This document shows positions 2,511 through 33,317 of a DNA stretch of 44,126 nucleotides, piece after piece (position 1 is the first letter of the stretch; every line of letters starts with the position of its first letter). The stretch comes from Phycisphaerae bacterium. Lineage in GTDB: Bacteria; Planctomycetota; Phycisphaerae; Sedimentisphaerales; SM23-30. The translations under genes were made by a program, and so were the position numbers. The notes under the pieces were generated by a model that made no database searches, was not told where the DNA came from, and worked only from the letters and a program-made list of their open reading frames with translations. The stretch is taken from assembly GCA_016342495.1 (NCBI GenBank), contig JAEIOG010000038.1, forward strand, positions 1 through 44,126, in the 5' to 3' direction.

Positions 2511-2645
2511 GCACTATGCCAGTAAGTTTGAAGCTGGGGATGACTTGTTTATCTCACCTTGTAAATAAATGGAAAAAGAGAATAATAGCTTAATAAGGCT
2601 AATAAATTAAAATTTTAGATAAAATATTGGCAGGATTAAATAAAA

Positions 2646-3788: not shown

Positions 3789-3929
3789 TTTACAGTAGTT
3801 TTTAAGACAAAAAGACCGATTAAAATGGAATAAAGGCTATAATATGTCATAAAAATGTATTTGTAGATGTCTTTAGCGACTGGGCGAAAGCTTTAATCGA
3901 CCGTATAATAAAGTGTAAAGGAAATAAAG

Positions 3930-7145: not shown

Positions 7146-7374
7146 GACTTGTTGTTGCCAGTTGGCTTGTTTGCCGGTGGCGTTGCCACCTTGGGCTGTT
7201 CGCTTCGTGCGGACGGTTGTGGCAGGAAAATTATAGAGCATGGGCAATAGCCCATCGGACCTGAGAGCCAAGACTATAGATATTTAAGGTGGCCCCTGAT
7301 TATTTGGGGGCGATCTTATTAATGATATTGAAATTTAATAATTTGGAAAACATTACCATATTGGGGATGCAGTT
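7146..7374. repeat. intergenic hairpins including a REP-like palindrome
   Basis: This leader before the pseudopilin genes holds several small hairpins: GGTGGCGTTGCCACC (7176-7190), a GTTCGC/GCGGAC stem with a TTCG-type loop (about 7198-7214), and GCCCC/GGGGC (7292-7311). The palindrome GCATGGGCAATAGCCCAT (7238-7255) belongs to the same family as the repeats at 10527 and 12236-12364. No gene is seen. Confidence 0.5.
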
Positions 7375-8259: not shown

Positions 8260-8406
8260 AAAATAGATAAAAACAGCAGGCAGGCGGGTTGGTAAAGGAG
8301 CCCGGCTGCCTGTTTGATAATTAAAGTTAGCAAGAGAGAAAGCGAGAAAGTGGGTAATGAGGATTGGAACTTTGTCGCTTTATGCCTTTTAAAAAATGGA
8401 AGTAAA

Positions 8407-8934
8407 ATGAAAAATAATAAGAGCAATCGTGGTTTTACCCTGGTAGAAATTATTGTCGTTATCGGTATTATTGGAATATTGACCGTAGCATTATCGAAGG
8501 TCGCTACCGTGGTTAAAACTAATGCTGAGATTAAATCCACCGAAGGACTTATCAGTCAACTGGTTGATGCCTTGCAGGCTTATGTGGACAATGACCCAAG
8601 TAAAAACAAAAATATCGATGGTGGTGGTTTTCCAGACCGCCATGAAATTAATCCTGAAGATAACGACGGTCAGTCATATACTGTGTATGTTGTTTGCATA
8701 CAAGGACTAAGCGGATGTCCACAAGCGCGTGAGGTTATAAATGCGATTGCCGATGAGTATAAAAAAAGTTATGTAGATCCAGCTGAACCACATGATATAA
8801 TTTATCTGGTAGATGCATGGGGCAAAGCTTTGAATTACAAGAAGGATGGTAGCGGCAATTTTCCGGTAATCAAATCTGCCGGGCCGGATATGGTTTTTGG
8901 CACTGCTGATGACATTGTAAGTTCGGAATTTTAG
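8407..8934 (+). CDS. GspG-like pseudopilin, tandem copy 1
   Basis: A prepilin with leader MKNNKSNRG and then FTLVEIIVVIGIIGIL (E+5 present). The frame is open further upstream (to 8314), but the start at 8407 is chosen because it gives a normal 9-residue leader and is preceded by GGAAG at about 8398-8402. The mature part contains a conserved helix (LVDALQAYVD) and ends SAGPDMVFGTADDIVSSEF, the Asp-rich motif probably involved in Ca binding as in GspG. It is 175 aa. It is clearly a paralogue of the next gene: both helices and both C-terminal motifs align, while the middle differs. Confidence 0.87.
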   Translation: MKNNKSNRGFTLVEIIVVIGIIGILTVALSKVATVVKTNAEIKSTEGLISQLVDALQAYVDNDPSKNKNIDGGGFPDRHEINPEDNDGQSYTVYVVCIQGLSGCPQAREVINAIADEYKKSYVDPAEPHDIIYLVDAWGKALNYKKDGSGNFPVIKSAGPDMVFGTADDIVSSEF

Positions 8935-8958
8935 TATAATTAATTGTTGAGGTCGCCT

Positions 8959-9459
8959 ATGACCCGAAAAAATAAAAAAGGTTTTACGCTCATCGAAATT
9001 ATCGTGGTGATAGCGATAATGGGCATTTTGATGGTGGCCTTGTCCAGAGTTGCCATCTCGATTAAGACCAAAACCCAAGTCAAGGCGACCGAAGCGGTGA
9101 TGAGACAGGTTATTGATGCCTTGCAGGCTTATGTTGATGGGCATTATGGTAAAAATACCGGTGAATTTGAATATCCTTATAGTTCTTATACCGGAGGCTA
9201 CAAACTGGATGGAAAGTTGGTAAGTGTTCCCAGAATCGTGCCATATCCAACAATAGATGCGTTCCCTGACAGTCGGCAAATATTGGATAGTATTTCTGAT
9301 GAATTTAAGAAGAAACAGAATATTATTGTTATTCTTGATGCCTGGAAAACACCATTGCTATATGAATTGCAAACAGATGGCAATTTTCCAACCCTCCGAT
9401 CGGCAGGCCCGGATATGATTTTTGGCACGGTTGATGATATAGTAAGTACCGATTTTTAA
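8959..9459 (+). CDS. GspG-like pseudopilin, tandem copy 2
   Basis: A prepilin with leader MTRKNKKG and then FTLIEIIVVIAIMGIL. An upstream TTG would extend the frame to 8944, but the ATG at 8959 has a TTGAGG ribosome site and a normal leader, so it is preferred. It is 166 aa. The IDALQAYVDGHYGKN helix and the end SAGPDMIFGTVDDIVSTDF match the preceding gene, which lies 24 bp upstream, so the two arose by tandem duplication. The three GspG-like proteins may be alternative or mixed major subunits of the filament. Confidence 0.87.
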   Translation: MTRKNKKGFTLIEIIVVIAIMGILMVALSRVAISIKTKTQVKATEAVMRQVIDALQAYVDGHYGKNTGEFEYPYSSYTGGYKLDGKLVSVPRIVPYPTIDAFPDSRQILDSISDEFKKKQNIIVILDAWKTPLLYELQTDGNFPTLRSAGPDMIFGTVDDIVSTDF

Positions 9460-9645
9460 CCTGAATATTCCCTTAATATGGTAAATAGATAAATTACAGC
9501 CTTAACCACTGGGCGAATTGACTGGACACTTGTAGAATTAAGCAGACAAAGAAGACGCCAGCGTCAAAACCTCTTGACTCCTTTGGTTTTGGAATCGAAG
9601 AGCGGCTTTAGCATAAATTTGACTTTTGGCGTGGCCATCGAAATT

Positions 9646-10527
9646 ATGAGAAAAATGATGAAAAACAACAGAAAATCAGGTTTTACGCTCGTTGAGCTGC
9701 TGGTGGTGGTCTCGATCATAGCCATTATGGTTGCGATAGCCCTGCCAACGTTGCCGGGCATGATCCGCAGCCAGAAGATGAGCTCCTCGCAGACGGCGAT
9801 CAAGGCGATACTGGCCAACGCCCAGGTACGGGCCGCAACCAGCCAAAAATATGCCGGTGTCCGCTTCCAGGCCAGTCCGCAAGGGCGGTTTTATGCCGTG
9901 CATCTGGAACAAGCTACTCAGACCAATAGGGATATTGATGGTAATGGCAGTGTAGATATTGATTTTTATTATATTGGTTCTGGCGGTTGGGAAAGTTTTT
10001 TACCCATGGTTCCAGTGCCAAACAGCAAACCTATCGCATTACCTGAGGGGATGGCGATGATGTCGATTGACATCGATAATTCCACAATTCCCGATGATAT
10101 GCTTATTAATTACGACCAGAGTGCGCCGCAATTCTATTGTCTTGAAAATTTTGAGACTTTTACCATTGTGTTTTCACCCAGTGGCCAGATTGTGACAAAG
10201 AAAGTTGGAGTTCTTTGGAGAAATGATAATGATGCTATTTTTGGCCCGGCAATAGATACAATAACAGCCGATGGACAAAAATCAGTTCGACTATTGTCAT
10301 ATGATAATTTTTTAATGGTTCCAAGTAATGTAAATAATAATGAAAATGAACCCTGGTGTTGGCCCGAAGACAGCACCACTGGTTTATATTTATATGAAAA
10401 GGATGCCCTGACCGAGACTGACCCGGATTTGCGTTATACTGATATTATCAGTCAGCATAAGTCCAATTTATCGGTTCAGCAGATGGTCTTTAATGTTTAT
10501 ACCGGCGCCGTTATCCGGGTCGATTAG
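9646..10527 (+). CDS. GspH/FimT-like minor pseudopilin
   Basis: A prepilin with leader MRKMMKNNRKSG and then FTLVELLVVVSIIAIMVAI. The H/FimT assignment rests on the segment after the helix (SSSQTAIKAILANAQVRAATSQ), typical of GspH. It is 294 aa from ATG 9646, against about 150-200 in classical GspH. The exact start is unsure: ATGs at 9655 and 9658 also give good leaders and no strong ribosome site favours one. The 5' quarter is GC-rich and G/C-ending in its codons, while the remainder is AT-rich, so the gene looks mosaic. GspH would sit at the pseudopilus tip with I, J and K. Confidence 0.83.
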   Translation: MRKMMKNNRKSGFTLVELLVVVSIIAIMVAIALPTLPGMIRSQKMSSSQTAIKAILANAQVRAATSQKYAGVRFQASPQGRFYAVHLEQATQTNRDIDGNGSVDIDFYYIGSGGWESFLPMVPVPNSKPIALPEGMAMMSIDIDNSTIPDDMLINYDQSAPQFYCLENFETFTIVFSPSGQIVTKKVGVLWRNDNDAIFGPAIDTITADGQKSVRLLSYDNFLMVPSNVNNNENEPWCWPEDSTTGLYLYEKDALTETDPDLRYTDIISQHKSNLSVQQMVFNVYTGAVIRVD

Positions 10528-10547
10528 GTAGGGTGGGCCACGGGCAC
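10527..10547 (+). repeat. REP-like short repeat
   Basis: GGTAGGGTGGGCCACGGGCAC, starting on the last base of the H-like gene's stop codon, resembles the arms of the inverted repeat at 12236-12364 (GGTAGGATGGGC...GCCCATGC). Its right half is degenerate. It is probably a diverged single copy of that family. Confidence 0.45.
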
Positions 10548-10605
10548 ACTGATTATGATTTAACAACATGAGCTGGATTTTTCTGGCTTGGTTTTGGAAA
10601 TAAAA

Positions 10606-12231
10606 ATGAGAAATTATAATAGACAAAATGGTTTTTCGATGATGGAGATACTCTTTGCGATCTTCATTTTGACCATGGGTATGGTTTTTGTGGCTACCCA
10701 GTTCCCCATCGGCTTGAACAACAGCAAAAAGGTCGCCGAAACCACCGTCAATGCCGCTGCCACCCACAATGCCGCGATCTTGTTTGAAAAAGAGATGGCA
10801 AGGGTAGGCGAAAGAGGGCGGGATTTGCGTAATGGCTATGGCACTATAACCGGAACTACTGATCTTGACAATGCAATGCTGGATGTTTATATGCCAGCGA
10901 CAATTCATTATATGCCACGTCCAAATGTTTATGCCGATAATGATACCCTGGTAGTTGATGATGTTGAATGGGTTTATGCAGTTGATGGAACCTCGGTTGA
11001 TGGAACTTCAAAGCCTTACTGGAATAATAATGATTGTAGATATTATTTGTTAAATAAGGGTGTAGGTGATGATGGCGAAGAGCTATCGATAAATACCGAT
11101 AATGAAAAGTCTAAACGTGACCATTATCGCCATCTTGATCCACCATTTTGGCAATATTCACCTTATTACCCAGATACTTCTAGTTTGCCATATTTGAGAA
11201 ATCTTAGTGATAATAAAGAAAGGTATAAGGCTTTAGAAGATGAAAGTGGTGCTAATGGTTATGTAGATAACTATCCTACTCCTAGTGGTGATAACTGGCC
11301 TGATAATTTTTCACCTTATACAATAGATTTTATTGGAGCAATAGGCAGTATTGTCGAGCCGCAGATAGACTATAGTGACCCTGAAATTGCATTGAAAACC
11401 AGAATGGCAGCAAAAGTTGGCGAAAATGATATTTCTTATTTATATAGCCATACCGCAATTGAGCGTATTGATTATCTTTATCCTGAAATATATAAAAAAG
11501 CACTGGAAAGCCGTTACAATATGGCGGCGTTTTATACTGATGATAAAATAGGTTATTTGAATAGTGGTGGCACATTTGTTATTGGTAACAACAATCCCCG
11601 CTATATGTATATCTTTACCTTACGTCAGAATACCAAACCTAATATTCGTTATGCTATTCAAGATCCAGAAAGTTTTGCTTTTGATTCTGCTAATCTGAAT
11701 TTTCCTATGCATACTGGTGCCCCTTTGGTTGCTCCAATCCCTTATGATGCTGGATACGACAGAATTTTTCCAGTACCGTGGCGGGTGTTCTTAGATGATT
11801 TTTCCCGTAAACATCCAACCGCATTTCCAGAAATGAGCACTGTTAATCAATATCGAGATTTTAATGACATCGATAGATTTGTTCATCCATGGAATGAATC
11901 ACAGAGTTTTTCTGTTGATGCCTCCATCGGTGAAATTTTAAGGGTTGGCTCAGTTATTATTGATGCTGATGTTGAAGATAGAGTGCCAGCGACAGCAGCT
12001 AACAAAGATATAAAAATTAGATCTGGCTCTGGCCAGGCCTATAAGATCACTGATCGTCAGCCTGATGGCGGTACAGATCGCTGGATTATTACCCTTGACC
12101 GTGTATTGGAAAATGACCTGGCCAGTTTTTGGGTTTTTCCGCCGGCGATTGTTCGCTTTGACGATGGCACTTATGAATTTGAAGATACCCAGCCGGTGAT
12201 AGATTATGTCAAGGTTCAGGTGGATTTCTAA
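10606..12231 (+). CDS. oversized GspI/PilV-like minor pseudopilin
   Basis: A prepilin with leader MRNYNRQNG and then FSMMEILFAIFILTMGMVFVATQFPIG (E+5 present). The F-x-M-x-E-x-L-x-A-x-x-I-L pattern is that of GspI/PilV proteins. The ATG at 10606 is chosen over the upstream TTG (10588) because TTGGAAATAAAA gives a ribosome site at proper distance. It is 541 aa, against about 120-180 for classical GspI or PilV. Residues after about 85 form a large region rich in Tyr, Asn and Asp with no family recognised. As in neighbouring genes, the first 200 bases are GC-rich and the middle AT-rich. It sits between the H- and J-like genes, as expected for I. Confidence 0.8.
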   Translation: MRNYNRQNGFSMMEILFAIFILTMGMVFVATQFPIGLNNSKKVAETTVNAAATHNAAILFEKEMARVGERGRDLRNGYGTITGTTDLDNAMLDVYMPATIHYMPRPNVYADNDTLVVDDVEWVYAVDGTSVDGTSKPYWNNNDCRYYLLNKGVGDDGEELSINTDNEKSKRDHYRHLDPPFWQYSPYYPDTSSLPYLRNLSDNKERYKALEDESGANGYVDNYPTPSGDNWPDNFSPYTIDFIGAIGSIVEPQIDYSDPEIALKTRMAAKVGENDISYLYSHTAIERIDYLYPEIYKKALESRYNMAAFYTDDKIGYLNSGGTFVIGNNNPRYMYIFTLRQNTKPNIRYAIQDPESFAFDSANLNFPMHTGAPLVAPIPYDAGYDRIFPVPWRVFLDDFSRKHPTAFPEMSTVNQYRDFNDIDRFVHPWNESQSFSVDASIGEILRVGSVIIDADVEDRVPATAANKDIKIRSGSGQAYKITDRQPDGGTDRWIITLDRVLENDLASFWVFPPAIVRFDDGTYEFEDTQPVIDYVKVQVDF

Positions 12232-12235
12232 ATTA

Positions 12236-12364
12236 GGTAGGATGGGCTATGCCCATGCGGTGATTTTTGAGCTGGTATGATCGCTCAACATGGTCAAAGC
12301 CCATCCTGCAAAGCTATTAAAAAGCATAAAGCATAAGTTCAGCATGGGCAGAGCCCATCCTACC
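12236..12364. repeat. REPIN-like inverted pair of palindromic repeats
   Basis: The left arm 12236-12258 and the right arm 12342-12364 are 23-bp inverted copies with one mismatch. Each arm contains its own small palindrome (ATGGGC-x-x-GCCCAT). A third, degenerate copy lies between them (12289-12309, same orientation as the right arm). Two REP units in inverted orientation bounding about 80 bp is the architecture known as a REPIN, usually mobilised in trans by a RAYT transposase. No such gene is in the window. The element fills nearly the whole gap between the I- and J-like genes. Confidence 0.7.
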
Positions 12365-12384
12365 GAGTTGATTGATATAGAGAA

Positions 12385-13587
12385 ATGAAAATGAAAATAA
12401 ATCATAAAAATAGAATATCCGGCGTTACGCTGATTGAATTGATGGTGGCTGTGGGCATTATGACTATGATGCTGGCTATCACTGGCATGGTTTTTAAAAG
12501 TGCCTCCGATGCCTCGGGCAAGGCCCTCAGTAATAATGACCTGATGCAGCAACGGCGGATTATCACCCAACAGCTGGATAAGGATTTTGCCGGTCTGCTT
12601 AATGATATGCCTTTTGCTATCAGTTTCCAGCGGGTAGCGATAGCCGACCCGACCCCCGATTATCCCCGCAGTGGCGATGAAACCTGGATTCGCCGCGATA
12701 AAATCGTTTTCTATACTAGTGGCGACCTGCAAAGTGTCGATGGTAATGTACAAGGTAATACCGCCAAGGTATTCTATGGCCTGATGGGCTATTTGGAAGA
12801 TTTGGGCGATTATTCAGGAAATACAACACCCAATGGCCAACTGGAAATGTTTGCTGATTACAGTGAACTTATTGGCTATCCGCCAAATATGATTAATACA
12901 GAAATTTTAGAAGATAATTATGATTATCATCCTATTGATAATCCTCAAGGAATCCCATATCCTCCTCGTGAGATAATGGTGCGCAATCAGTCTATTGTTT
13001 TACCGATTGAATATAATCCTATAATCACAGACCCGGGCTATTGTCTTAATTCTGCCCGGTTCCTGACATTGGAAGAATGTAAAGATACGGCATTATTAAC
13101 TCGTGATATGGATAATTATTATCTTGATACAACTTCTAGTCAACCGGTTTATGTCTTAAATTATGACCCCGATGTCATAGCCAACAGTAGCGGTGTTACA
13201 TCTTTATATTATGAGTGCATGACTAATCGCGACTTTATTAATAAACCTCTTGTCGAAGACCCTAGCATTATTAATTTGCAGCGGTTCTTAATGGGTAGCG
13301 ATGTTTCCAGTATTTCGATTCAGTATTCTAAAACTGACCCTGTTACAAAACAGACTACATGGTATCCTAATGATCACGATTTCATGCCCGCTGGTGCGAT
13401 GGGGGCGGTTTATTATTGGAATACAAATACCTCTGGTACTTTTCCCAGCCCCAACGGGGCCGACTGGATTCCTGGCGGCACTTTCCCGACCGAGTTAAAA
13501 TTTACCATAACCCTGCACGATCAGGATCGGCGGCATTTCCCGCAGGGTCAGACCTTCAGTTATATTGTCAAGTTGCCCCAGAGATAA
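12385..13587 (+). CDS. oversized GspJ-like minor pseudopilin
   Basis: A prepilin with leader MKMKINHKNRISG and then VTLIELMVAVGIMTMMLAI. E+5 is present and +1 is Val instead of Phe, which is seen in some J proteins. The following helix (SNNDLMQQRRIITQQLDKDF) and the closing beta-rich segment (PTELKFTITLHDQDRRHFPQGQTFSYIVKLPQ) are typical of GspJ ends. The 400-aa length is about twice the usual, from an AT-rich, Tyr/Pro/Asn-rich middle section (about residues 130-310). It is expected to form the tip complex with the I- and K-like proteins on either side. Confidence 0.82.
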   Translation: MKMKINHKNRISGVTLIELMVAVGIMTMMLAITGMVFKSASDASGKALSNNDLMQQRRIITQQLDKDFAGLLNDMPFAISFQRVAIADPTPDYPRSGDETWIRRDKIVFYTSGDLQSVDGNVQGNTAKVFYGLMGYLEDLGDYSGNTTPNGQLEMFADYSELIGYPPNMINTEILEDNYDYHPIDNPQGIPYPPREIMVRNQSIVLPIEYNPIITDPGYCLNSARFLTLEECKDTALLTRDMDNYYLDTTSSQPVYVLNYDPDVIANSSGVTSLYYECMTNRDFINKPLVEDPSIINLQRFLMGSDVSSISIQYSKTDPVTKQTTWYPNDHDFMPAGAMGAVYYWNTNTSGTFPSPNGADWIPGGTFPTELKFTITLHDQDRRHFPQGQTFSYIVKLPQR

Positions 13588-13653
13588 TTATAATAAATGA
13601 GAATGGACAAACGCTGTCGCTGTGCGGCAGATAAAAATAACAGGAATGAAAAG

Positions 13654-16600
13654 ATGAAAACGCATAAATCAAATCGAAAGATGATCGCCCAGCGTGGCTC
13701 GGCATTGCTTTTAGCGATGGTCATAACCATGATCCTCTTTGTGATGGGCTTTGCCTTTATGTCCGCCACCCGCGTCGATCAGGAAGCCGTTACCAAGGTC
13801 AATGACCGCAAGAGCCTCGATGTAGCCGTCGATGCCGTCATCGAAAAAATCTCCGATACGCTCGTTACCGATTTGTTTGATCAGGGTGGCACAGAAAATT
13901 CTGCCAATAAAAATAATTTCCTAGAAGGCAAAGCCGCCTATGACTATCCCGATGTTAATGATCAATGGCTGGCAAACCTGGAACCGGAGGAAACTACTTT
14001 TATTGATACATATAATTCCAAATCATATTTGTTGCCTTGGTGGAATCAGATAACAGATTTGTGGGGTAATTTTAGTGGTTCAGGTAGCGTAAGTGGGTAT
14101 TATGAAAGTTTGGGACGACCTGCGGATAGATTGAATTCTATCGGATCTGGTAATTATGGTATAGTTGGACCTTTTGTAGAGGCCAAAATTATTCCCGAAG
14201 ATCAGATAATCGATGAAGTGTTTTGGTATGATTCTACCGCATCATATTTGTATAGCCGATGGCGGGGAGCTCCTGCTGATGCTGACGGCGATGGCATTGC
14301 CGATTCCCGTTGGGATGTCGTCCCCGGCTTAACCGGCCCCCACGATGAAAGAATTTATGCCGCAGTCAGAATCATCGACAATGGCGGCATGATAAATATC
14401 AACACCGCATATCGCAATCCCGATGATGCTACTTTTTCAAATACAGGCACTGCCAAAGGCAAATGGGATGGCACCCAATTAGGCCATGTCAATCTTGGCG
14501 GCATAATGGCGGACGGCGATGTTACAAAAGGCCGTACCCCAGCCGACATCCAGTTGGGCCGCCGATATGGTGCTAAGGTTTATGATCCTTCCACCCTCAA
14601 AGACCAAGATGGCGATACCGCAGCTCTTAGCCTCAATGATATTGAACTTAGCTATTCCGAAGATATAAATAATGAAATGTATCTGGCTCGTCGCCTGTCA
14701 AAGCCGCATTGGTTTAATGAAACCACCGGCAACGGCTTTAATGCCTATTACTCGCCTTTTGATATGACAGATGAAATGGAATTGCGTAATAGACTGTTGC
14801 TGACCAGCAGTACATTTAACTCTGCTACTTCTACAGCATATCGCTATAAAAGAATATCGAATATCTGGCCCACAACATTTGATCCTTGGCCTGGGGCTGT
14901 TGGTGCAACGAATCCTTATGTTAGCAGTATAGGTGGGTGGTATGACAAAATGAAAGCTGATATCGATCAGGGTGGTACTTCTATCGGCAATTACAATCGT
15001 CGTCACTTAGCCACCACTTATAATGCTGATCGGGAAATTACCCCGAAAATCAGTGAAACCGATCTGGATAGCTTCTTTAAGGATGCCTGGTCGGGAAATG
15101 TGGCAAAGGGTGTACCTGGCCGTTTGACAATTTCTGGTTATGAAAAGTTACGGAACGGTACCCAACTGAAGGATATTCCAAATTCTGACAAAATCGAAAA
15201 AACCTATGGTGCAATTAATGTCCCTGAAATTCTCCAGCGAATTCAAGATAGAACTCGTGAATTCCTGAGTGATGGAACTACTAAAAATCCGAAATATGAA
15301 TCTAATACCACAACTCGCAAGAGTAAAAATGATGAAGACACAGCCATCATCGCCGCCGCTATCTGGCATAGCCTCTCTGGGGTAACTGAAGATAGTCCAC
15401 GGGATACTAAGGTTGGCGCCATTCTGGAACCATTGCCAATATTCCGTGGTAATGATGCAAATGTTAATGAACAAAATGAAATTAAACTCACCGAGATAAG
15501 CCGCAACACTGACAAACTAAGTTATTATCGGGAAGTGCTCGCTTGTCAGATGGCCGCCAACCTCATCGACCATTTCGATACCGATGATGAAGTGACTGAA
15601 TTTGTCGTTAATACCGGTGGCAATATCAATAAATTCTATGGCTTCGAATTCCGCAGCCCCAAACTGTTTATCGGCCAGGTCGTCTATTGCAGCTATCGCA
15701 CTGAAACCTATAATGATCCTGCTAAGGATCCTGCTGCTACAGATAGCAGTACAGAAGATGATACGACTCCGACAGATAAAACAGAATCTGATAAAGAATA
15801 TTATGCCATCGAGCTATATAACCCCGGTCCGGTCGATGTTGAACTGAAAGATTTTCAGCTGATAATCAGTAAAAATGAAGAGGGTAATGATCCCGATAAA
15901 AGCAAGATTGGTGAATTGAATTTTAATACCAAAACCATTCGTGTAGGCGAATCAGTTTTTATTACTAATGCCAAAGAATCTGAAATAGTCAGAGAGGGTG
16001 CAACTAGCAAGACCGGTATTTATGCTAAAGCTGGCGTTGAGTTTGTTCAACCTGATACTACCGACAGCAGGTATACCACAGGGTTTACTGTCGTTGGTGA
16101 TTTTCTGAATGATATTATGATTGAACTACAGCATAATGCCAGTGCTGATGGTACCCGTGGTAGCTATATTGTTGACCATATCGGCGCTGTCGAAGGTGGC
16201 CTCGGTAAGCTCAGCGACTTTGATATCGGTGATGAAGATGTCAAGGCTGTTAACAATAATACCCCCATGGAAAAATATGAACAACGTATAGTCCAGCATG
16301 ATACCGAACGTAAGTTTGTACGTCTGACCGGTTATGATAGCAAAGATGATGGCAAAACTACTAATGACAAGGAACCCGATGAAATCATTATGCCGGTCTG
16401 GGATAATGATGTTGATCCCGATATAAATAGAAGATGGGTTCCGTATGTCAAGGCCATTGATGAGTTGAAACTGGAAACTACTGGCAAAGAAATAAATCTG
16501 GATGGCACGAAAAAAATCCCAATCTTTGCCGAAGGCATCCGCAGTAACTACGGTAGCGACGGTAGTAAGAAAGGCTATTTTAGTGACACTGCTTCAGCAG

Positions 16601-17763
16601 ATTCAGCTACCGCCCAGACCTTAGATGATGCCTTTACCCATCAGCCTGATATTTATGATATTTTAACTTTTGGCACGATGGCTATCAGTGAAGATCGAGG
16701 TAACAGTACCTTTGATAAAAAGAAAATCAAGGTCTGCACTATCCCGGAATTCTGGCGCAGGCTTTCTGACACTACCGGTAGCAAGATTAGCGATAGCCGC
16801 GCTGGCAGGTTCTCGATGTATGACCCGAAATATCAGGGGATGATGAGTTACTTCTCAATTTTCAATCCGCGTAATGATGGCTTTGATTATAATAATAATG
16901 GTTTTATTGATAGCTATGAAGGTATTGACAATAATGGCGATGGCACAGCCAACGAAGAAGGTGAAGACCTCGTCTTTGGCCGTATCAATATCAACACAGC
17001 TCCATGGTATGTAATCGCCCAGCTGCCCTGGGTCCAGGATTTAGCGGCGGTTGATGCTTCAGGCTTATCTGGTGCTGAATATGAACTGGCCCGCTATCAG
17101 CTGGCCCGGGCAATCTGTGCCTATCGGGATAAGGATGCGATCTGGAATGGCAGCGACCTGCTGATCAATTATGGTGAACCAAAAAATGCAGGAGAAAGTG
17201 ATTGGACATCTTGGTTTAGCGGAAGTGACTCCGCTGATCGTAGAAAATCAACTCGTCAGTATATGATGGGGGTAGATAAAACCAAATGGGATGAAGACTT
17301 TAATGAAGATAAAGGTTTTAGCAGAATCCTGGAATTGTTAAATGTTACTTATGATCCAGATAAAATATCCTCAGATCGGCATTCATCATTGTCTAAAAAT
17401 GGCAATGATGAGACCATCCGTGAATTCGGCAGTATCGAACGCTATGGCCGCAATGAAGATAGTAGCGGCCCAATTAATGATAATGAAACCGAAGCTACTA
17501 TTACCAATAATGTAGCTTCTCATCCGTTTTATGATGAAACTGACAGTTTTGCCAACGATGACAAGGAAAAGGCCATCCTCTTTAAACGCATTAGTAATCT
17601 GGTAACGGTTCGCAGCGATGTCTTTACCGTTTATATTCTGGTTCGACTCGGGCAGGCTGGCCCGCAGAAACGCTATATAGCCGTCTTTGACCGCAGTAAC
17701 TGCACAGAACCCGACCATAAACCTAGAATGATGACAATGTACCAGGTACCCGATACCTACTAG
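13654..17763 (+). CDS. gspK: giant GspK-like pseudopilin with LTD-like insert
   Basis: A minor pseudopilin expected at the filament tip. From ATG 13654 (preceded by CAGGAATGAAAAG) it has leader ...AQRG, then SALLLAMVITMILFVMGFAF. The Glu at +5 is absent, as is normal for GspK. GRININTAPWYVIAQLPWV (about 1109-1127) is the V/I-N-x-NTAP helix-hairpin segment diagnostic of GspK. D-rich Ca-type loops are at about 209-217 (DADGDGIAD) and about 1077-1100 (YNNNGFID, DNNGDG), the second directly before the NTAP motif. About residues 715-800 (ELYNPGPVDVELKDFQLII ... GESVFIT) resemble a lamin-tail (LTD) domain. It is 1369 aa, against about 300-350 normally. It is the last gene of the cluster. An upstream in-frame ATG (13597) was rejected because it would give a long unusual leader. 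Confidence 0.85.
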   Translation: MKTHKSNRKMIAQRGSALLLAMVITMILFVMGFAFMSATRVDQEAVTKVNDRKSLDVAVDAVIEKISDTLVTDLFDQGGTENSANKNNFLEGKAAYDYPDVNDQWLANLEPEETTFIDTYNSKSYLLPWWNQITDLWGNFSGSGSVSGYYESLGRPADRLNSIGSGNYGIVGPFVEAKIIPEDQIIDEVFWYDSTASYLYSRWRGAPADADGDGIADSRWDVVPGLTGPHDERIYAAVRIIDNGGMININTAYRNPDDATFSNTGTAKGKWDGTQLGHVNLGGIMADGDVTKGRTPADIQLGRRYGAKVYDPSTLKDQDGDTAALSLNDIELSYSEDINNEMYLARRLSKPHWFNETTGNGFNAYYSPFDMTDEMELRNRLLLTSSTFNSATSTAYRYKRISNIWPTTFDPWPGAVGATNPYVSSIGGWYDKMKADIDQGGTSIGNYNRRHLATTYNADREITPKISETDLDSFFKDAWSGNVAKGVPGRLTISGYEKLRNGTQLKDIPNSDKIEKTYGAINVPEILQRIQDRTREFLSDGTTKNPKYESNTTTRKSKNDEDTAIIAAAIWHSLSGVTEDSPRDTKVGAILEPLPIFRGNDANVNEQNEIKLTEISRNTDKLSYYREVLACQMAANLIDHFDTDDEVTEFVVNTGGNINKFYGFEFRSPKLFIGQVVYCSYRTETYNDPAKDPAATDSSTEDDTTPTDKTESDKEYYAIELYNPGPVDVELKDFQLIISKNEEGNDPDKSKIGELNFNTKTIRVGESVFITNAKESEIVREGATSKTGIYAKAGVEFVQPDTTDSRYTTGFTVVGDFLNDIMIELQHNASADGTRGSYIVDHIGAVEGGLGKLSDFDIGDEDVKAVNNNTPMEKYEQRIVQHDTERKFVRLTGYDSKDDGKTTNDKEPDEIIMPVWDNDVDPDINRRWVPYVKAIDELKLETTGKEINLDGTKKIPIFAEGIRSNYGSDGSKKGYFSDTASADSATAQTLDDAFTHQPDIYDILTFGTMAISEDRGNSTFDKKKIKVCTIPEFWRRLSDTTGSKISDSRAGRFSMYDPKYQGMMSYFSIFNPRNDGFDYNNNGFIDSYEGIDNNGDGTANEEGEDLVFGRININTAPWYVIAQLPWVQDLAAVDASGLSGAEYELARYQLARAICAYRDKDAIWNGSDLLINYGEPKNAGESDWTSWFSGSDSADRRKSTRQYMMGVDKTKWDEDFNEDKGFSRILELLNVTYDPDKISSDRHSSLSKNGNDETIREFGSIERYGRNEDSSGPINDNETEATITNNVASHPFYDETDSFANDDKEKAILFKRISNLVTVRSDVFTVYILVRLGQAGPQKRYIAVFDRSNCTEPDHKPRMMTMYQVPDTY

Positions 17764-18610: not shown

Positions 18611-19864
18611 TTATCGTTTGATCTTCAGATAATTAATATTATTTTGTCCTTGTTCCAGCGGGATGACCTGGCCAATAATAGCGGCGGTGGCATCACCGGC
18701 TGCCTGAATAGCTGCTAAGGCATCGCTGGCCTGGTCGGCTTTAACCATGATTAATAAGCCACCGGAAGTCTGGGCTTCAGCGATCAAAGACTGCATCTGG
18801 GGGCTGACATTATCATCATAGCTGCAGGCTCCGGCGATATATTCATTGCATTTGCAGACCCCGACACAATTAAAGTCTTGCATGTATTGCAGGATATTAT
18901 CAAACAATGGGATGCAATCGGTATGATAACATAAGGTGACATTGGCGTTTTTAGCCATCGCCAGAGAATGACCCAGCAGACCAAAACCAGTAACATCGGT
19001 AACCGCACTGATATCAAAACCACCGATGGCATCGGCGGCATACATGTTTAATCTTTCCATGCTGGATGCGAACTGGTGATAATGTTCAGCGGTTAAACCG
19101 TCGGCTTTATGGGCATTGGAATAAATGCCGGTGCCGATTGGTTTGGTCAGGATAATCTTATCGCCGATGCGGGCTTTGCTATTAGTTAAAACCTGATTAG
19201 GATTGCACAGGCCGGTGACACTCATGCCATAGACCATGCTGTCCTGTTCGATAGTGTGGCCGCCAACCAGGGAGACTTTGGCCTCCTGCAGTTTTTCGCT
19301 GCCGCCAATGAGTAATTGCTCGATAGCTTCTGGCGGTATCAGACCGGCAGGATAGCTAAGCAGATTCATCGCGGTGATTGCCCGGGCGCCCATGGCCCAA
19401 AGGTCAGAGAGGCTGTTAGCTGCTACGATTCGACCAAAACTTTTCGGGTCATTGACCACCGGATAGAAAAAGTCGACAGTCTGGACCAGGGCGGTATCAT
19501 CATTGATACGATATACCCCGGCATCATCCATGGTGTCCATACCTACCAGTAAATTAGGGTCAGCGGTTTTAGGGAGTTTATTAATGATTCCGGCCAACAT
19601 GGTCGGATTGAGCTTACCTACTCAGCCAGCGCAAGGGGCATAATCCAGCAGGCGAATCTCTTTGCCGCTTTGGATAGCACTATCTGGGGTAACTGGAGCT
19701 TTATCGTCAGCGTTTTCCGGAGGATAGGGCACACCCGCTAAATGCTCACAATAAGTCTGCTGAGCCCGGCCATGATGAAAGTCAATGCACTGCCGGCATT
19801 TGCCATGCCGCTGGCAATTCGATGGGCAGGGGCATTTTTTACCATTATATAGTTCTATAGTCAT
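18611..19864 (-). CDS. selD: selenide, water dikinase (SelD), Sec-containing, with Cys-rich N-terminus
   Basis: Makes selenophosphate from selenide and ATP for selenocysteine and selenouridine synthesis in the cytoplasm. A TGA at 19622-19624 interrupts an otherwise continuous frame. Read as Sec it gives DYAPCAG-U-VGKLNP, which lines up with E. coli SelD YSHGAGCGCKISP, placing U81 on the catalytic Cys17 and K84 on the essential Lys20. After it come TMDDAGVY, VGGHTIE, DVTGFGLLGH and TSGGLL, all SelD signatures. Total 417 residues. Starting at the ATG after the TGA (19600) would lose the active site. Residues 1-45 are an extra Cys-rich module (C11, C13, C17, C23, C26, H30, H31, C39) of possible metal-binding type, absent from E. 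coli SelD. A strong promoter lies at 19911-19939; the ribosome site is weak. Confidence 0.9.
19589..19607 (-). promoter_or_regulatory. bacterial SECIS-like hairpin downstream of the selD UGA
   Basis: In the mRNA, counting from the base after UGA, bases 15-22 pair with 26-33 (UCCG-A-CCA with UGG-C-CGGA, one A/C mismatch), leaving loop UGU at 23-25. A G in the first two loop bases, about 16-37 nt after the UGA, is the accepted bacterial SECIS pattern recognised by SelB, and this fits it. It was folded by eye only. Confidence 0.6.
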
Positions 19865-21578: not shown

Positions 21579-23993
21579 ATGCTAAAAAAGAGTAAATTTA
21601 TAATTATTGTCATGGTTATTATGTTTATTGTGCAAAATGTTTCACTGGCGCAGTCTGAGCAGAAAAAGGTACAGGAACTTAAAGATTTGCGATTTGGCAT
21701 GTTTATTTGCTGGTCTTTCAGCACCTTCAGCGGCTATGAATGGTCCCCCGGCGTTGAAGATGTTTCATTTTTCAATCCGACCGGGTTCGATCCGGACCAG
21801 TGGTGTCGGGTTGCCAAAGATGCCGGCATGGGTTATATCCTTTTTCTCACCAAGCATCACGATGGCTTTTGCCTGTGGAATACCTCCACTACTGACCGCA
21901 AGGTTTCTAATACCAAAGCTCTAAAAGGTATTGATGTCTTAGCTGAAGTTAAAAAGGCCTGCGACAAGCATGGATTAAAGCTGGCTTTATATTTTTCCGA
22001 AGGTGACTGGTCCTGGTCTGGTCGCAAAGATATTCATACCTCGGTAGCCCGGCCTGAAACCAAAAAAGCTCAACTCAAAGAATTACTCACGAATTACGGG
22101 CCCATCGAATATATCTGGTTTGATCATGCCGTTGGAACTGGCGGACTTAGCCATGCCGAAACAGCTGAATTCGTTAAGTCGATCCAGCCAGATTGCTTTG
22201 TTGGCTATAATCATGGCCCACAGGATGGCTCAGATATTCGTCTGGGCGAACGCGGAAAACCAGCACCATTGGATGTTGCCGATGCTGAAACTATTGGAAG
22301 TGCCCAGCGGGCCAGTTTCATGAAAGGCTACACTGGTCATAAATTAGCGGAATTTACTTATCCCATTCTGGAAGGGCAAAAGCGATTAACCATGCGTGGA
22401 GCCCAATGGTTTTATTCCCTGCCGGAAAATGATAATTTTGCCGCTTCCGCTGAAAAAATCTACAAAGACTATCTAGGTGCTGTTAAATATGGTAATATTT
22501 TCTCACTGGACGTTGGTCCGGATCGTAGCGGGAAACTTCGAAAAATTGATGTTAAAACTTTAAAGAAAGTTGGTCAGTATATCCGGGGTGAAATTCAATT
22601 GCCGCCGGAACCTCTGGAAGTAAAGCAAGTAACCGCTTCGAGTATCTGGGATGATAGTTACAAAGCTGAATTTGCTATCGATGGCGATTCTAATACCCGC
22701 TGGGGGGCAAAAGAAGGCAGTCGTAGCGGTTGGCTGGAATTTGACCTTGGCGAAAAACAAAATATTCAGCGTATAGTCATTAGCGAAGCTGGCTATAACA
22801 GAATTCAACAATATCAAATGCAAGTAAAGGTAGGCGATCAATGGCATACTTTTCTTGAAGGCGACACCATAGGTAATATGGACAAATCTTTTGGTTCGGT
22901 TAAAGGCCAGTTTTTTCGTTTGAATATTATAAAAGCTTCTGAAGTGCCAACCATTAGTATATTTAATATTTTCTCAGAAAAGTTTGTTCAGGAAGTGGAT
23001 ACTTTAAGCCTCACAACTGAAATTATCCCGGCGGCTTCAAAACTTGCTTTGGCAAGCCACAATGCCCAGCCATATATACTCACCGATTCTGACTGGTTTA
23101 TCTGGGGTGGCTCTGTTATCGAAGAAAATGGCAAATATCATATGTTTACCGAACGTTGGCCCCGAAAGTATGGTTTCTATTGCTGGCTGACTCATGCTGA
23201 AATCGCCCACTATATCGCTGATGTCCCGCAAGGGCCATATCATTATGTAAGCACTGTTCTGAAAGGCCGTGGAAAAGGGCATTGGGACCAGATCGCTTCT
23301 TATAATCCCATGATTTGCAAATTTAATAATAAATATTACCTCTATTATGTTTCAACTACCCATCCCACTATTGATGCAAAGGGATTAATTGAAACCGCTA
23401 AAGTTGGCTATTCTCACCCAAACTGGATGCCTATCCGCAATGCGCAACGCAGCGGCGTGGCAATCGCTGATTCAATTGATGGACCATGGCATTGCAGTGA
23501 TAAACCGATTGTCCAACCTTCCGGGCCGATTACAAAATTAACTGTTAATCCAGCGGTATGTCAGGGCCCAGATGATAAATATTATATGATTATCAAAGGC
23601 GATAAACCCGGCAGTCGTAAGCGCAATCAGGCAGTTGCTATTGCCGAAAATCCTGCAGGACCCTTTATCGTTCAACCAAAACCTGCTATCAAAGATATTG
23701 ACACCGAAGATGCTTCTATGTGGTATGATACTAATCAAAAACGATTCTATGCTGTTTTTCACGCCCATACCTTCATTGGCATGATAACCTCAACCGATGG
23801 CCTCAATTGGCAAAAAGCAAACCAGTATGAACTTAAAAGCAAAGAAGTTCTCTTTGATGATGGTTCAATATTAAAGCCCGATAGAATGGAAAGGCCCTTC
23901 GTTTATACAGACAAAACTGGCAAACCGCTTTTCCTTTTCTTTTCGGTTAAAAAAGCAAATGATACAATGAATATATGTGTAGAAATTCAATAG
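21579..23993 (+). CDS. GH29 alpha-L-fucosidase with discoidin domain fused to a GH43-like propeller
   Basis: A secreted enzyme removing alpha-L-fucose from polysaccharides. The ATG at 21579 is preferred over 21573 because AAAAGGA lies 7 nt before it. After a signal peptide (to about ...NVSLAQ) comes a GH29 barrel (about 30-345) with TKHHDGFCLW and IEYIWFDHAVG. The Asp of WFD (about residue 182) is the expected nucleophile. Then comes an F5/8 type C (discoidin/CBM32-like) domain (about 350-470: TRWGAKEGSRSGWLEFDLGE). The last ~310 residues are a second unit with propeller-type repeats (GGSVIEENGKYHMFTERW, YNPMICKFNNKYYLYYVS, DDKYYMIIKGD, ERPFVYTDKTGKPLFLFFS) resembling GH43/GH117-like folds. 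804 aa. Ten bases separate it from the next fucosidase gene. The second activity is unknown. Confidence 0.87.
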   Translation: MLKKSKFIIIVMVIMFIVQNVSLAQSEQKKVQELKDLRFGMFICWSFSTFSGYEWSPGVEDVSFFNPTGFDPDQWCRVAKDAGMGYILFLTKHHDGFCLWNTSTTDRKVSNTKALKGIDVLAEVKKACDKHGLKLALYFSEGDWSWSGRKDIHTSVARPETKKAQLKELLTNYGPIEYIWFDHAVGTGGLSHAETAEFVKSIQPDCFVGYNHGPQDGSDIRLGERGKPAPLDVADAETIGSAQRASFMKGYTGHKLAEFTYPILEGQKRLTMRGAQWFYSLPENDNFAASAEKIYKDYLGAVKYGNIFSLDVGPDRSGKLRKIDVKTLKKVGQYIRGEIQLPPEPLEVKQVTASSIWDDSYKAEFAIDGDSNTRWGAKEGSRSGWLEFDLGEKQNIQRIVISEAGYNRIQQYQMQVKVGDQWHTFLEGDTIGNMDKSFGSVKGQFFRLNIIKASEVPTISIFNIFSEKFVQEVDTLSLTTEIIPAASKLALASHNAQPYILTDSDWFIWGGSVIEENGKYHMFTERWPRKYGFYCWLTHAEIAHYIADVPQGPYHYVSTVLKGRGKGHWDQIASYNPMICKFNNKYYLYYVSTTHPTIDAKGLIETAKVGYSHPNWMPIRNAQRSGVAIADSIDGPWHCSDKPIVQPSGPITKLTVNPAVCQGPDDKYYMIIKGDKPGSRKRNQAVAIAENPAGPFIVQPKPAIKDIDTEDASMWYDTNQKRFYAVFHAHTFIGMITSTDGLNWQKANQYELKSKEVLFDDGSILKPDRMERPFVYTDKTGKPLFLFFSVKKANDTMNICVEIQ

Positions 23994-24003
23994 GATTTAG
24001 AAA

Positions 24004-26100
24004 ATGATTATGAAAAAAATAATATTCGTGTTTATAGTCTTTTTTATGACTATCAACTTAAATGCTCAAAGCCCAGAGCCTTATGGCCCGGTCCCTACAG
24101 CCAGCCAGCTGCGATGGCATGAAATGGAATATTATTCCCTGATTTGCTATGGCTTAAACACCTATACCCAGCAGGAGTGGGGCTATGGCGATATTGCCCC
24201 CAAACTGTTTAATCCATCTAATCTCGATACTGATCAATGGGCCCGTGTATGCAAAGATGCAGGTATGAAAGGTATTATTCTCGTAGCCAAACACCATGAT
24301 GGTTTTTGCTTATGGCCATCTGAAACCACAAAATATACTGTCTCTGCTACGCCCTGGAAAGATGGTAAAGGTGATGTATTAGGAGATTTGGCTAAGTCAT
24401 GTGAAAAATATGACCTTAAACTTGGTATATATATTTCCCCCTGGGACCGCAATCACGCCGAATATGGCCGTGAAGCTTATGTTAAAGCCTATCATCAGCA
24501 ATGGCGCGAAGTTCTGCAATATTCCGACGATATTTTTGAAGTATGGTTTGATGGTGCTAATGGCGGCACTGGATATTATGGCGGTGCCAAAGAATCTCGC
24601 AGTATAACCAAAGATTATTATCAATATGACAAAGTCTATGAGATAATCAAAAAAGCTCAGCCACAAACTATCTTTTTTGGCCAACTGGGTGGGGTAACCA
24701 AAGATACTGCTCGCTGGGTGGGCAATGAGAGTGGCTATGCTGATAAATCAAACTGGGCAACTTTTACTTATCCCGATAAACCAAATTTCAAATTACTGGA
24801 AAAAGGTCTCAAGGATGGAAAATACTGGATGCCTGCTGAAGCGGATACTACTTTGACCTGGCCTAAGGCATGGTATTATCACGCCAACACCCGTCCCAGA
24901 ACCCTCAAACAACTTCTCGATGTCTATTATCAAACCATAGGTCGCAACGCCACATTTAATCTGGGCATTGCTATAGCCCCGGATGGCCAGATTAGTCCCG
25001 CTGACGCAGAAGCAATGCTTTCCTTAAAAAAACAGCTCGATCAGGAATTTTCCCATAATCTTATTGAAAAGGCGATAATTAAATCTTCAAATCAAAGGCC
25101 AGATTTTCCTGCCCAAAACTGTATCGACCAGAGCAGCAAAACTTATTGGGCAACTACCAAAGGCGATCAAAAAGCAACCATCACTATTGACTTCCAGCAG
25201 CCAACTACTTTCAATAGAATTTTATTACAGGAATATATTGCGTTAGGCCAACGTATTGATGGTTTTACTATTGAAGCATGGGATGATAATAAGTGGAAAA
25301 CCATCGAACAGCAAACTACCATCGGCTATAAAAGAATCCTGCGAACCGACACAATCAAAACCGACAAAATTAAAATAACATTCCAGACTGATGCACCCTG
25401 TATTACTCTGGCAAACATAGGCATTTACAATGCGCCAATAATTCTTTCAGACCCAATTATAAAAGTCGACATAAACGGAATGCTTTCGATAGATGCTCCT
25501 AAAGGCGCTGATATTTTTTATGTCATTGGCAAAAATGTAAATAACTCATCTTTTCAAAAATACATCCAATCAATTGATTTAAGCAAAGGCGGTAAAGTTC
25601 AAGCTTATGCTGTTGACCCTGCTACAGCCAACAAAACTTCTATCGTTACCGCACAATTTGGCATAGCAAAAACGAAAATGAAAATTTCAGATTGCACTTT
25701 TGCCAATACTGGCGACGCCCATATTTCCAGAATAATCGATGGCAACCCTGAAAGCATGTGGCATACTCATGATAGCATAAAAGGGCGGCAAATCCCTCCT
25801 CAATCATTTACAATTGGTTTATCAATGGATATGACTATTACTGGCTTTGCTTACACCCCACGCCATGATGGTTGTTTTGTGGGCCTGGTCGATAGGTACC
25901 AGCTGCATGTCAGCTCTGATAATATAAACTGGCAGTTGGCCAGTCAGGGAGAATTTCATAATATAAAAAATAACCCGATAAAACAAATCATAAAACTGGA
26001 CCAGCCCGTAAAAGCTCGCTACATCAAATTTACCGCAACTCATGCTTTAGAAGATAATGATTGCGTGGCTATTTGTGAATTTGATGTTTTGGCAGATTAA
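24004..26100 (+). CDS. GH29 alpha-L-fucosidase with two discoidin-like domains
   Basis: A secreted fucosidase, second gene of the operon. The signal peptide MIMKKIIFVFIVFFMTINLNAQ is followed by the GH29 barrel (about 35-345) with AKHHDGFCLWPSETTKYTV and IFEVWFDGANGG; D183 of WFD is the expected nucleophile. The WFDGANGG form and the SPWDRNHAEYG segment resemble the narrow-specificity (1,3/1,4-linked) GH29 group, but this is inference. An F5/8 type C-like domain is at about 350-475 (NCIDQSSKTYWATT), a linker containing a chitobiase-like beta segment follows, and a second discoidin-like domain occupies about 560-698 (RIIDGNPESMWHTHD). 698 aa. AGGA overlapping the previous stop serves as ribosome site. 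Confidence 0.9.
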   Translation: MIMKKIIFVFIVFFMTINLNAQSPEPYGPVPTASQLRWHEMEYYSLICYGLNTYTQQEWGYGDIAPKLFNPSNLDTDQWARVCKDAGMKGIILVAKHHDGFCLWPSETTKYTVSATPWKDGKGDVLGDLAKSCEKYDLKLGIYISPWDRNHAEYGREAYVKAYHQQWREVLQYSDDIFEVWFDGANGGTGYYGGAKESRSITKDYYQYDKVYEIIKKAQPQTIFFGQLGGVTKDTARWVGNESGYADKSNWATFTYPDKPNFKLLEKGLKDGKYWMPAEADTTLTWPKAWYYHANTRPRTLKQLLDVYYQTIGRNATFNLGIAIAPDGQISPADAEAMLSLKKQLDQEFSHNLIEKAIIKSSNQRPDFPAQNCIDQSSKTYWATTKGDQKATITIDFQQPTTFNRILLQEYIALGQRIDGFTIEAWDDNKWKTIEQQTTIGYKRILRTDTIKTDKIKITFQTDAPCITLANIGIYNAPIILSDPIIKVDINGMLSIDAPKGADIFYVIGKNVNNSSFQKYIQSIDLSKGGKVQAYAVDPATANKTSIVTAQFGIAKTKMKISDCTFANTGDAHISRIIDGNPESMWHTHDSIKGRQIPPQSFTIGLSMDMTITGFAYTPRHDGCFVGLVDRYQLHVSSDNINWQLASQGEFHNIKNNPIKQIIKLDQPVKARYIKFTATHALEDNDCVAICEFDVLAD

Positions 26101-32021: not shown

Positions 32022-33317
32022 TTATTGAGTTAAATCATTTATTATATCTTCATTATTAGTTTTTGTTTCAACAATATTATTCACGCTTGAGGGTATTGGC
32101 TCATTTGGTATTTCAGGTTTTAACTGGTTTTTCCAGCTACCATTTCCCCATTTTTCCTGAGCCCATTGTAGCAAAGCTCCGCCGCCAAGCAACAGAAATG
32201 CCAGTAATAAAACGGCATAACCTTTACCATTTTTCGCCTGACCCAATTCTTTGACGCATTTTACAATTATACCGCTAATTGGTGCGATAAACGCAAAAAT
32301 TAACAGCCACCAGCACGAAATCGTAATTGCTGCCAAAGCGAAAGTTATTGATCCCCATGCAATCGCAGGATAAACAGGGTGCATTAACAGCCAGATGCTA
32401 TTATCTTTTGGGAAACCTTTAGGCAAATGGTCGCTAGCTACCATCAGCATGAACAATAGCGAAGCTAATAGCACTGCCCAGGCTAAAGGTTGGCCAAATC
32501 TGGCAAGTTTTGTCAGGCAAATCAGCACAATTGCCATCGTGATAAATATTGGAGAAAAGTACCAAAACGCCCATCCAGCGAAAACATAGGTTACAGCAGC
32601 TGCCTGTCCGACAGCACAAACAAATAATAACGCAATTACAATCCAGCCAACAGGCCAGCTCTTGAAAATATTTTCTTTATCAATAGCAAAGCCGCGAAGC
32701 TGTTGCTGTTTTACCAAAACCAGGTGTCCAGCTAAATAGGCCGCAATTACCCAGCAAAGCATTATTGCACCAATATATCGAGGCCCATCGCTTAGGCTTT
32801 CAAAAAGTGGTGCCGGACCAGCTGTCATTGCCAGCCAACCCAAAGCAAATATCTTTTGCATTCCACTGAGCTTGATATTACTTATATTGCACATCCATAC
32901 GATTTTAATTACAGTTGAGGCTATCCCAATGACTGTCAGGCTGTATGCCGTCCTTATCAGGTAGTCAGCCTTGATGTATTTTGTTGCTGCGTACAATTCA
33001 TTCAAAACCATAAAGAAAAAACCGCATAACACCAGCATGAAGCAAAATGAGCGAATAGCATCAACTTTCAGTTTCTGAATCAATTGCCATCGTCCCAGCG
33101 TAAGTAATAGCCACATATACACCTCAAAAGAGCCAAGGGTGATATATATGTGCCCAAGGGTTCCGGCTTTGCGATTGGATGGGTCTATTATCATCCGCAT
33201 TGCAACTAATAGCAGGAAAAAACTAAGCCAGTAAAACAGGTTGGCCATACTGTGGGCCAAAGGCTTATTTACAGACAGTTCTGTTGGCCTGTAATTTGCG
33301 ATTTTTTCGTTAGTCAT
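32022..33317 (-). CDS. polytopic membrane protein of unknown function
   Basis: 431 aa with about 11-12 hydrophobic segments, starting after a ~25-residue polar N-terminus and ending in a ~50-residue Asn/Glu/Pro-rich cytosolic or periplasmic tail. No transporter or enzyme motif was recognised. Pairs of Trp and aromatic residues near the membrane edges and a [13 protein letters not shown] segment are seen. The overall look is that of a multi-span protein with no soluble domain. It lies between leuA (303 bp upstream) and leuC (20 bp downstream) in the same direction. A link to leucine or a simple ride-along are both possible. Confidence 0.7.

Follow-up and report, generated by a model that had tools for sequence, protein, structure and literature searches.

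One gene on contig JAEIOG010000038.1 of Phycisphaerae bacterium (Planctomycetota) joins a GH29 alpha-L-fucosidase domain, a discoidin domain and a five-bladed propeller of the GH117 fold in a single protein. The whole stretch of DNA analysed, 44,126 nucleotides, is referred to here as the window. On balance we favour the reading that this protein, which is probably secreted to judge by its N-terminus (assessed by eye only), carries two catalytic modules for a fucose-containing polysaccharide or glycan. The gene is a single open frame of 804 codons (an alternative ATG six bases upstream would give 806). The opposite strand at 21579-23993 holds no frame of at least 150 amino acids (aa), and the one reverse frame inspected there was full of stops. 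The features are as follows.

21579..23993, + strand: whole gene, 804 codons and stop, in the order GH29, F5/8 type C, propeller (frame, Pfam)
21579..21653, + strand: signal-peptide-like N-terminus with a charged start, a hydrophobic stretch and ...SLAQ (by eye)
21666..22613, + strand: GH29 catalytic domain, aa ~30-345 (Pfam, alignment, model)
22122..22124, + strand: D182, predicted nucleophile position, aligned with D172 of 3ues (alignment)
22248..22250, + strand: E224, predicted acid/base position, in the column of the GNE/GSE glutamate, E217 of 3ues (alignment)
22626..22976, + strand: F5/8 type C (discoidin, CBM32-like) domain, aa ~350-466 (Pfam)
22977..23021, + strand: short linker, aa 467-481 (domain limits)
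23022..23990, + strand: five-bladed GH117-fold propeller, aa 482-804 (model, structure matches)
23103..23105, + strand: W509, where GH117 has its general base Asp90 (residue register by eye)
23595..23597, + strand: K673, at the place of GH117 Lys260 (profile alignment)
23706..23711, + strand: E710-D711, inner strand of blade 4, candidate catalytic acids (conservation, model)
23889..23891, + strand: E771 in the ERP motif, on the inner strand of blade 5, candidate catalytic acid (conservation, model)
24004..26100, + strand: next gene, GH29 with F5/8 type C domains, starting 10 bases on (Pfam)

A sequence-only reading of this gene had proposed a fucosidase joined through a discoidin domain to a GH43/GH117-like propeller, and this architecture is borne out by Pfam, by a profile match to GH117 (E 2e-21 to 1e-12) and by the propeller model. 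Pfam places Alpha_L_fucos at aa 63-336 (139.4 bits, cut-off 25.2) and F5_F8_type_C at aa 350-454 (64.5 bits, cut-off 28.2), followed by a weak and fragmentary Glyco_hydro_43 match on the propeller (34.2 bits in the whole protein, cut-off 32.2; 37.8 for the domain alone). Scans of the propeller against Pfam and NCBIfam returned no specific family name. An AlphaFold model of the propeller was built from a 25-row alignment and has a mean predicted local distance difference test score (pLDDT) of 94.7 and a predicted template modelling score of 0.93; its division into five blades of about four strands each was made by hand from the strand list. All of the first 18 Foldseek rows for this model were GH117. 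In the VIA alignment, which covers only chains ranked by Foldseek so that families beyond that list could also match, the nine best rows were again all GH117 (Z 28.3-29.3), with BT_0996 and GH159 next, and GH43 and other propellers after them. The profile built from 25 relatives matched GH117 structures at E 2e-21 to 4e-16, with 4u6d at 1.4e-12. The earlier description of the C-terminal ~310 residues as a propeller is therefore right as to fold, and its extent is refined to aa ~482-804, about 323 residues.

Conservation was assessed over 95 distinct propeller domains, a set that leaves out frames at 60-150 bits (8 of 115) and, from the 110 domains above 150 bits, duplicates, sequences containing unread residues and 11 near-copies. 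W509 and D711 occur in every domain, position 710 is Glu in 86 and Asp in 9, and position 771 is Glu in 90 and Asp in 5. R526 (92/95), N576 (94/95), K673 (91/95) and H521 (89/95) are also conserved, and the ERPFVY motif singled out in the sequence-only reading is a hallmark of the propeller family (E 90 and D 5, R 86, P 93). In the model, W509, N576, N657, E710-D711 and E771 lie on the strands taken, by hand, as the first in blades 1 to 5. In this fold class the active site is located at these first, inner strands. The model and the alignment together suggest a funnel active site with its carboxylates on blades 4 and 5 (E710, D711, E771), and we consider the propeller likely to be catalytic. 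The condition that the sequence-only reading named as refuting it, a lack of propeller active-site acids, gets a divided answer. The GH117 catalytic residues Asp90, Asp245 and His302 are lost, W509, N657 and E710 standing in their places; since positions 710, 711 and 771 are acidic in 95 of 95 domains, however, a plain absence of active-site acids does not describe this propeller.

A separate model was built for the GH29-discoidin part (aa 25-467, 21-row alignment, pLDDT 88.2), a full-length mixed alignment having been dropped because GH29 and propeller rows seemed to share columns. The 50 Foldseek rows shown for this model are GH29 or fucosidase entries, and the best match is 3uet, a B. infantis alpha-1,3/4-fucosidase whose title names a D172A/E217A mutant. 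Among 14 other GH29 domains aligned, all have Asp at the D182 column and 13 have Glu at the E224 column, the exception being Lys in L005, which is of another GH29 type. By a strand count made by hand on the model, barrel strand 4 ends with D182 and strand 6 contains E224, these being the strands to which the available part of PMC10154630 assigns the GH29 catalytic residues. Since both are conserved and stand at the expected strand positions, the fucosidase domain looks competent, with D182 as the predicted nucleophile and E224 as the predicted acid/base. The domain belongs to a distinct GH29 group, members of which occur in 20 of 397 genomes of the class, the window's own included, at 57-74% identity (in some cases over part of the query only). 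In genome G023 (locus L189, 6278-9043, - strand) a GH29-F5/8 unit of the window type is fused to a second GH29.

The association of GH29 with this propeller recurs. A survey of 115 propeller frames in the retrieved loci (113 distinct sequences) found both in one frame in 5 cases and in both domain orders, namely GH29-discoidin-propeller in the window, GH29-propeller at a second locus of the same genome (L003), propeller-GH29-discoidin in genome G067 (L068), and propeller-GH29 in Snuella (L079) and in a metagenome-assembled genome of Cytophagales (L082). GH29-propeller fusions therefore occur in Planctomycetota and Bacteroidota. On a tree of the 95 propellers the fusion label needs five changes (gains or losses), compared with 4.9 on average when the labels are shuffled; the fused rows are thus not clustered, and the tree on its own does not prove separate origins. 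A GH29 tree made by a quick method puts the window and G067 copies in one group and those of L003, L079 and L082 in another. The window and G067 proteins are 72% identical in the GH29-discoidin part and 32% identical in the propellers, which sit at opposite ends. Because domain order and GH29 type differ, four fusion events appear most likely, of which one may be shared by L079 and L082. As the partnership probably arose more than once, the two parts probably cooperate on fucose-rich sugars, and the propeller seems likely to act on the same fucose-containing substrate as the GH29 domain. In a literature search no GH29-propeller fusion was described in a title or the start of an abstract. The main text of PMC11189522 has no mention of propeller, GH43, GH117, CBM32, multimodular or fused, and the available parts of PMC10154630 and PMC8857213 have none of propeller and none of fusion, propeller or GH117, respectively.

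Propellers joined to other partners were also seen. A frame of 1057 aa in the window's own genome (L023, G000:C78, 10273-13443, - strand) begins with a propeller-like stretch, contains an F5/8 domain that scores below cut-off and ends in a propeller of this family; it adjoins sulfatase and GH20 genes. Further partners, at L063 (421-3348, +), L096 (3-2033, +), L108 (6723-8981, +) and L045 (378-2486, -), are a flavin adenine dinucleotide (FAD)-dependent oxidoreductase, GH97, an alginate-lyase-family domain and an endonuclease/exonuclease/phosphatase domain. FAD oxidoreductase and sodium symporter genes also adjoin standalone propellers.

In two genomes of the same order the halves are found apart. 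G366 (contig C210) and G351 (contig C232) each have a GH29-discoidin gene, 74% and 72% identical to the window's, that stops right after the discoidin domain. In G366 it is followed by a homologue of the window gene at 24004-26100 (58% identical over 708 columns), and in G351 the counterpart of that gene is a fragment at the contig end (62% over 74 columns). Other contigs of G351 and G366 carry the two standalone propellers that scored best in the class search, with 57% and 51% identity to that of the window. The halves are therefore separate genes within the same genome in these relatives and one gene in the window. One of the scanned neighbours of the standalone propeller in G366 is a sulfatase. 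Across the class, the window-type GH29 co-occurs with strong propellers (5/19 versus 15/377 genomes, Fisher p 0.0014, with the window's own genome excluded, thresholds set after seeing the lists and kinship ignored).

The propeller itself is widespread. At E 0.001 or better it turned up in 45 of the 397 class genomes, in some through weak partial matches, and in 3 of 13 genomes, the window's own included, in a family-level search. A single-sequence scan of genome contigs returned no propeller relatives; a search of contigs with a three-row alignment returned 211 relatives in 235 stretches, the best 80 of which are used here as named loci (73 of them with 3000 aa or more of frames). Propellers from named genomes come from Bacteroidota, Bacillota, Planctomycetota and others, and are plasmid-borne in Pseudomonadota and a haloarchaeon. 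Most frames above 150 bits in the named loci (69/77) are of standalone length (330-460 aa). Tandem propeller-propeller frames, three of them, were also seen.

A closer inspection of the window's clade supports a link with fucose. In Aestuariibaculum (L078) the propeller adjoins genes for L-fucose dehydrogenase (369 bits, cut-off 300) and FucP (TIGR00885, 535 bits, cut-off 280; 275 of 427 with a second FucP model), together with two neighbours below cut-off, one L-fuconolactonase-like (277 of 400) and one didehydro-deoxy-rhamnonate-hydrolase-like (355 of 500). L081 has the same neighbours by similarity, on fewer checks. In Snuella (L079) three further GH29 genes lie upstream of the fusion and a GH141-like gene downstream. 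The plasmid relatives, seven regions in six of nine records examined, are more varied. A fucose isomerase is just upstream of the propeller in Bacteroides finegoldii and an alpha-L-fucosidase lies two genes on in Paenibacillus; the remaining regions have GH16/GH2, sulfatases, a short-chain dehydrogenase/reductase with a major facilitator superfamily transporter, or pectin lyases with GH95. Six of the nine records annotate the propeller as 'glycoside hydrolase family protein' and in the other three it is unnamed. The propeller on a haloarchaeal plasmid (L200, NZ_CP119797, 7926-8984) stands beside oligogalacturonate and rhamnogalacturonan lyases and GH95. Because plasmid and other contexts vary in this way, the evidence for a tie to fucose holds within the window's clade and does not extend to the entire family. 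Among the 80 named loci, which had no control set, GH29 occurs at 18, the GH95 cluster at 16 and the sulfatase cluster at 21 (Pfam checks covered two GH95-cluster members and one member of the sulfatase cluster). The window genome has 16 GH29, 91 sulfatase and 10 GH95 matches (a few frames count twice among the sulfatase and GH95 matches, as two pieces) and a single fucose isomerase match above cut-off, a gene content that would suit an organism degrading sulfated, fucose-rich polysaccharides.

Under the reading that we favour, the N-terminal domain would act as a retaining alpha-L-fucosidase of the alpha-1,3/4 (B) type with D182 as nucleophile and E224 as acid/base, the discoidin domain would serve as a binding module, and the C-terminal propeller would be a second glycoside hydrolase, with the GH117 fold but without the GH117 catalytic residues, probably using E710, D711 and E771. 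Tethering would allow one module to uncover the substrate of the other. We tentatively entertain the narrower idea that the residue cleaved by the propeller is itself L-fucosyl or of another L-galacto-configured kind. Several observations weigh against the two-enzyme reading. We know of no activity for any propeller member found here. Across the whole family there is no general tie to fucose, some relatives adjoining GH16/GH2, oligogalacturonate and rhamnogalacturonan lyases, or a PL8-type lyase; within the flanks of the named loci a GH29 or GH95-cluster protein is found at only 25 of 80. None of the 17 further proteins scanned in the window, which has 31 frames of at least 150 aa counting the gene pair, was a fucose gene, and no recognised fucose gene was found among the neighbours scanned of the standalone propellers in G351 (five) and G366 (three). 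The Foldseek superpositions of the GH29 model are loose (template modelling score about 0.5-0.6, root mean square deviation (rmsd) 10-17). In the propeller the key GH117 residues are replaced, leaving room for a non-catalytic role, and the window copy departs from its own family at position 575 (Tyr, His in 87/95) and position 729 (Ala, Asp in 72/95).

Of the alternatives, the one to be taken most seriously is that of the sequence-only reading, in which the propeller is an exo-glycosidase for a non-fucose sugar under or beside fucose; we regard this as quite possible, if somewhat short of an even chance. Fucose is already handled by GH29, and GH117 relatives release anhydro-L-galactose (PMC11574756, in part). 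The GH16/GH2 and pectin lyase contexts suggest that specificities probably differ between clades. In Verrucomicrobiota, moreover, GH43_12 adjoins GH29 genes, which the authors, in the available part of PMC8857213, read as pointing to a sulfated fucose/xylose substrate. The neighbours of the window's clade speak for fucose instead, with L-fucose catabolism genes at L078 and L081 and GH29 and GH141-like genes at L079; since flavobacterial relatives adjoin such catabolism genes, the propeller may itself act on a fucoside. Of that earlier interpretation the domain order and fold class hold, and a substrate with fucose next to another sugar is a possibility only.

It is unlikely, in our view, that the propeller lacks catalysis and is a remnant of a GH117-like enzyme, binding carbohydrate so as to target or position GH29. 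Such a role would agree with the Trp, Asn and Glu found in place of GH117 Asp90 (register by eye), Asp245 and His302, and with the loss of the common His575 and Asp729 from the window copy. The three acidic positions are nevertheless kept in every domain across several phyla, as is a Lys at the place of GH117 Lys260, and the standalone size of most propeller frames would be unusual for a pure binding module; the tandem frames also speak against this role. That the fusion stems from misassembly or a frame error, or is a single chance event with no functional meaning, is highly improbable: the exact order GH29-discoidin-propeller was found in the window genome only and two same-order genomes have the parts separate, but artefact is rejected by the continuous frame, the similar base composition (43.0% vs 41.9% G+C) and the further GH29-propeller fusions in both orders and two phyla.

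A broader and more doubtful proposal makes the propeller the first of a separate glycoside hydrolase family, with members in Planctomycetota, Bacteroidota, Bacillota, Pseudomonadota and an archaeon at the least. This family would retain the GH43/GH117 fold, its catalytic carboxylates would have moved from blades 1-3 to blades 4-5, and it would be specialised on L-galacto sugars (L-fucose, L-galactose, anhydro-L-galactose) and repeatedly fused with GH29. The family is uncharacterised and may already carry a CAZy number. Its repeated fusion to a fucosidase whose active site can be recognised, together with same-order genomes in which the halves are apart, gives a direct lead to the propeller's substrate. 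If the propeller is catalytic with relocated acids, a five-bladed scaffold is able to form its active site anew at another place in the funnel, and an additional tool would be at hand for breaking down fucose-rich polysaccharides such as fucoidan.

Elsewhere in the window, frames at 13597-17763 (+, 1388 aa) and 32022-33317 (-, 431 aa) have no Pfam match at E 0.001. The former comes after type II secretion and N-methylation-motif genes at 780-13587. A selD-like selenide, water dikinase gene lies at 18611-19600 on the - strand (TIGR00476, 318 bits, cut-off 125).

Lastly, the two putative enzymes can be set against known systems. The window GH29 domain has its fold and both catalytic positions in common with GH29 alpha-1,3/4-L-fucosidases of the B type (3ues/3uet, 3mo4 and SpGH29 6org; also 3eyp, 4zrx and 8ayr), but it stands on a long branch (1.39 in the quick tree) shared, in the set used, only with the G067 copy. 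For the propeller, the next best folds after GH117 are BT_0996 (5mt2), of GH137, and GH159 (7zei), at Z 27.2 and 26.6 and 11-15% identity. The GH43 profile (PF04616) matches 24 of 25 members weakly and, in the window protein, in fragments; the fold is alike, with GH43 rows at Z about 24-25. GH43 enzymes have three catalytic acids, on blades 1, 2 and 3; judged by the strands taken as first in these blades, the window propeller would carry W509, N576 and N657 there.

The 3,6-anhydro-alpha-L-galactosidase family GH117 (4ak5-4ak7, 3p2n, 5ta7, 3r4y/3r4z, 4u6d, 4u6b) shares the fold over 277-284 aligned residues (rmsd 2.5-3.3) at 16-19% identity. According to the available part of PMC11574756, Asp90 is the general base of GH117 and His302, with Asp320, the general acid; single changes of Glu303, Asp90, Asp245, Glu167 or His302 inactivate the enzyme, and Lys260 approaches the glycosidic oxygen. 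These residues were mapped from the profile alignment, the numbers of chain 4ak5 running two ahead of those in PMC11574756. The Asp90 stretch is absent from that alignment, and its partner W509 was read by eye, ungapped, with the first blades superposed, as implied by the register of the profile alignment and by the end-to-end ranges of the VIA alignment; single-sequence phmmer alignments shift by one blade and pair the stretch with Asn576, and neither register gives an acid in the window propeller. Asp245 is replaced by Asn657 (N in 86/95), the general acid His302 by Glu710, and Glu167 by Met578 in a column that is not conserved. Asp320 falls where the gap placement is unsure, near column 729. 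Because the Asp90, Asp245 and His302 positions are replaced, identity as a true GH117 (agar) enzyme is rejected. Glu303 corresponds to Asp711, a carboxylate kept in a changed residue, and Lys260 is retained as K673 (K 91, R 4 of 95). With its putative carboxylates relocated, the propeller is therefore best read as belonging to an uncharacterised glycosidase family built on the GH117 fold rather than to GH117 itself.

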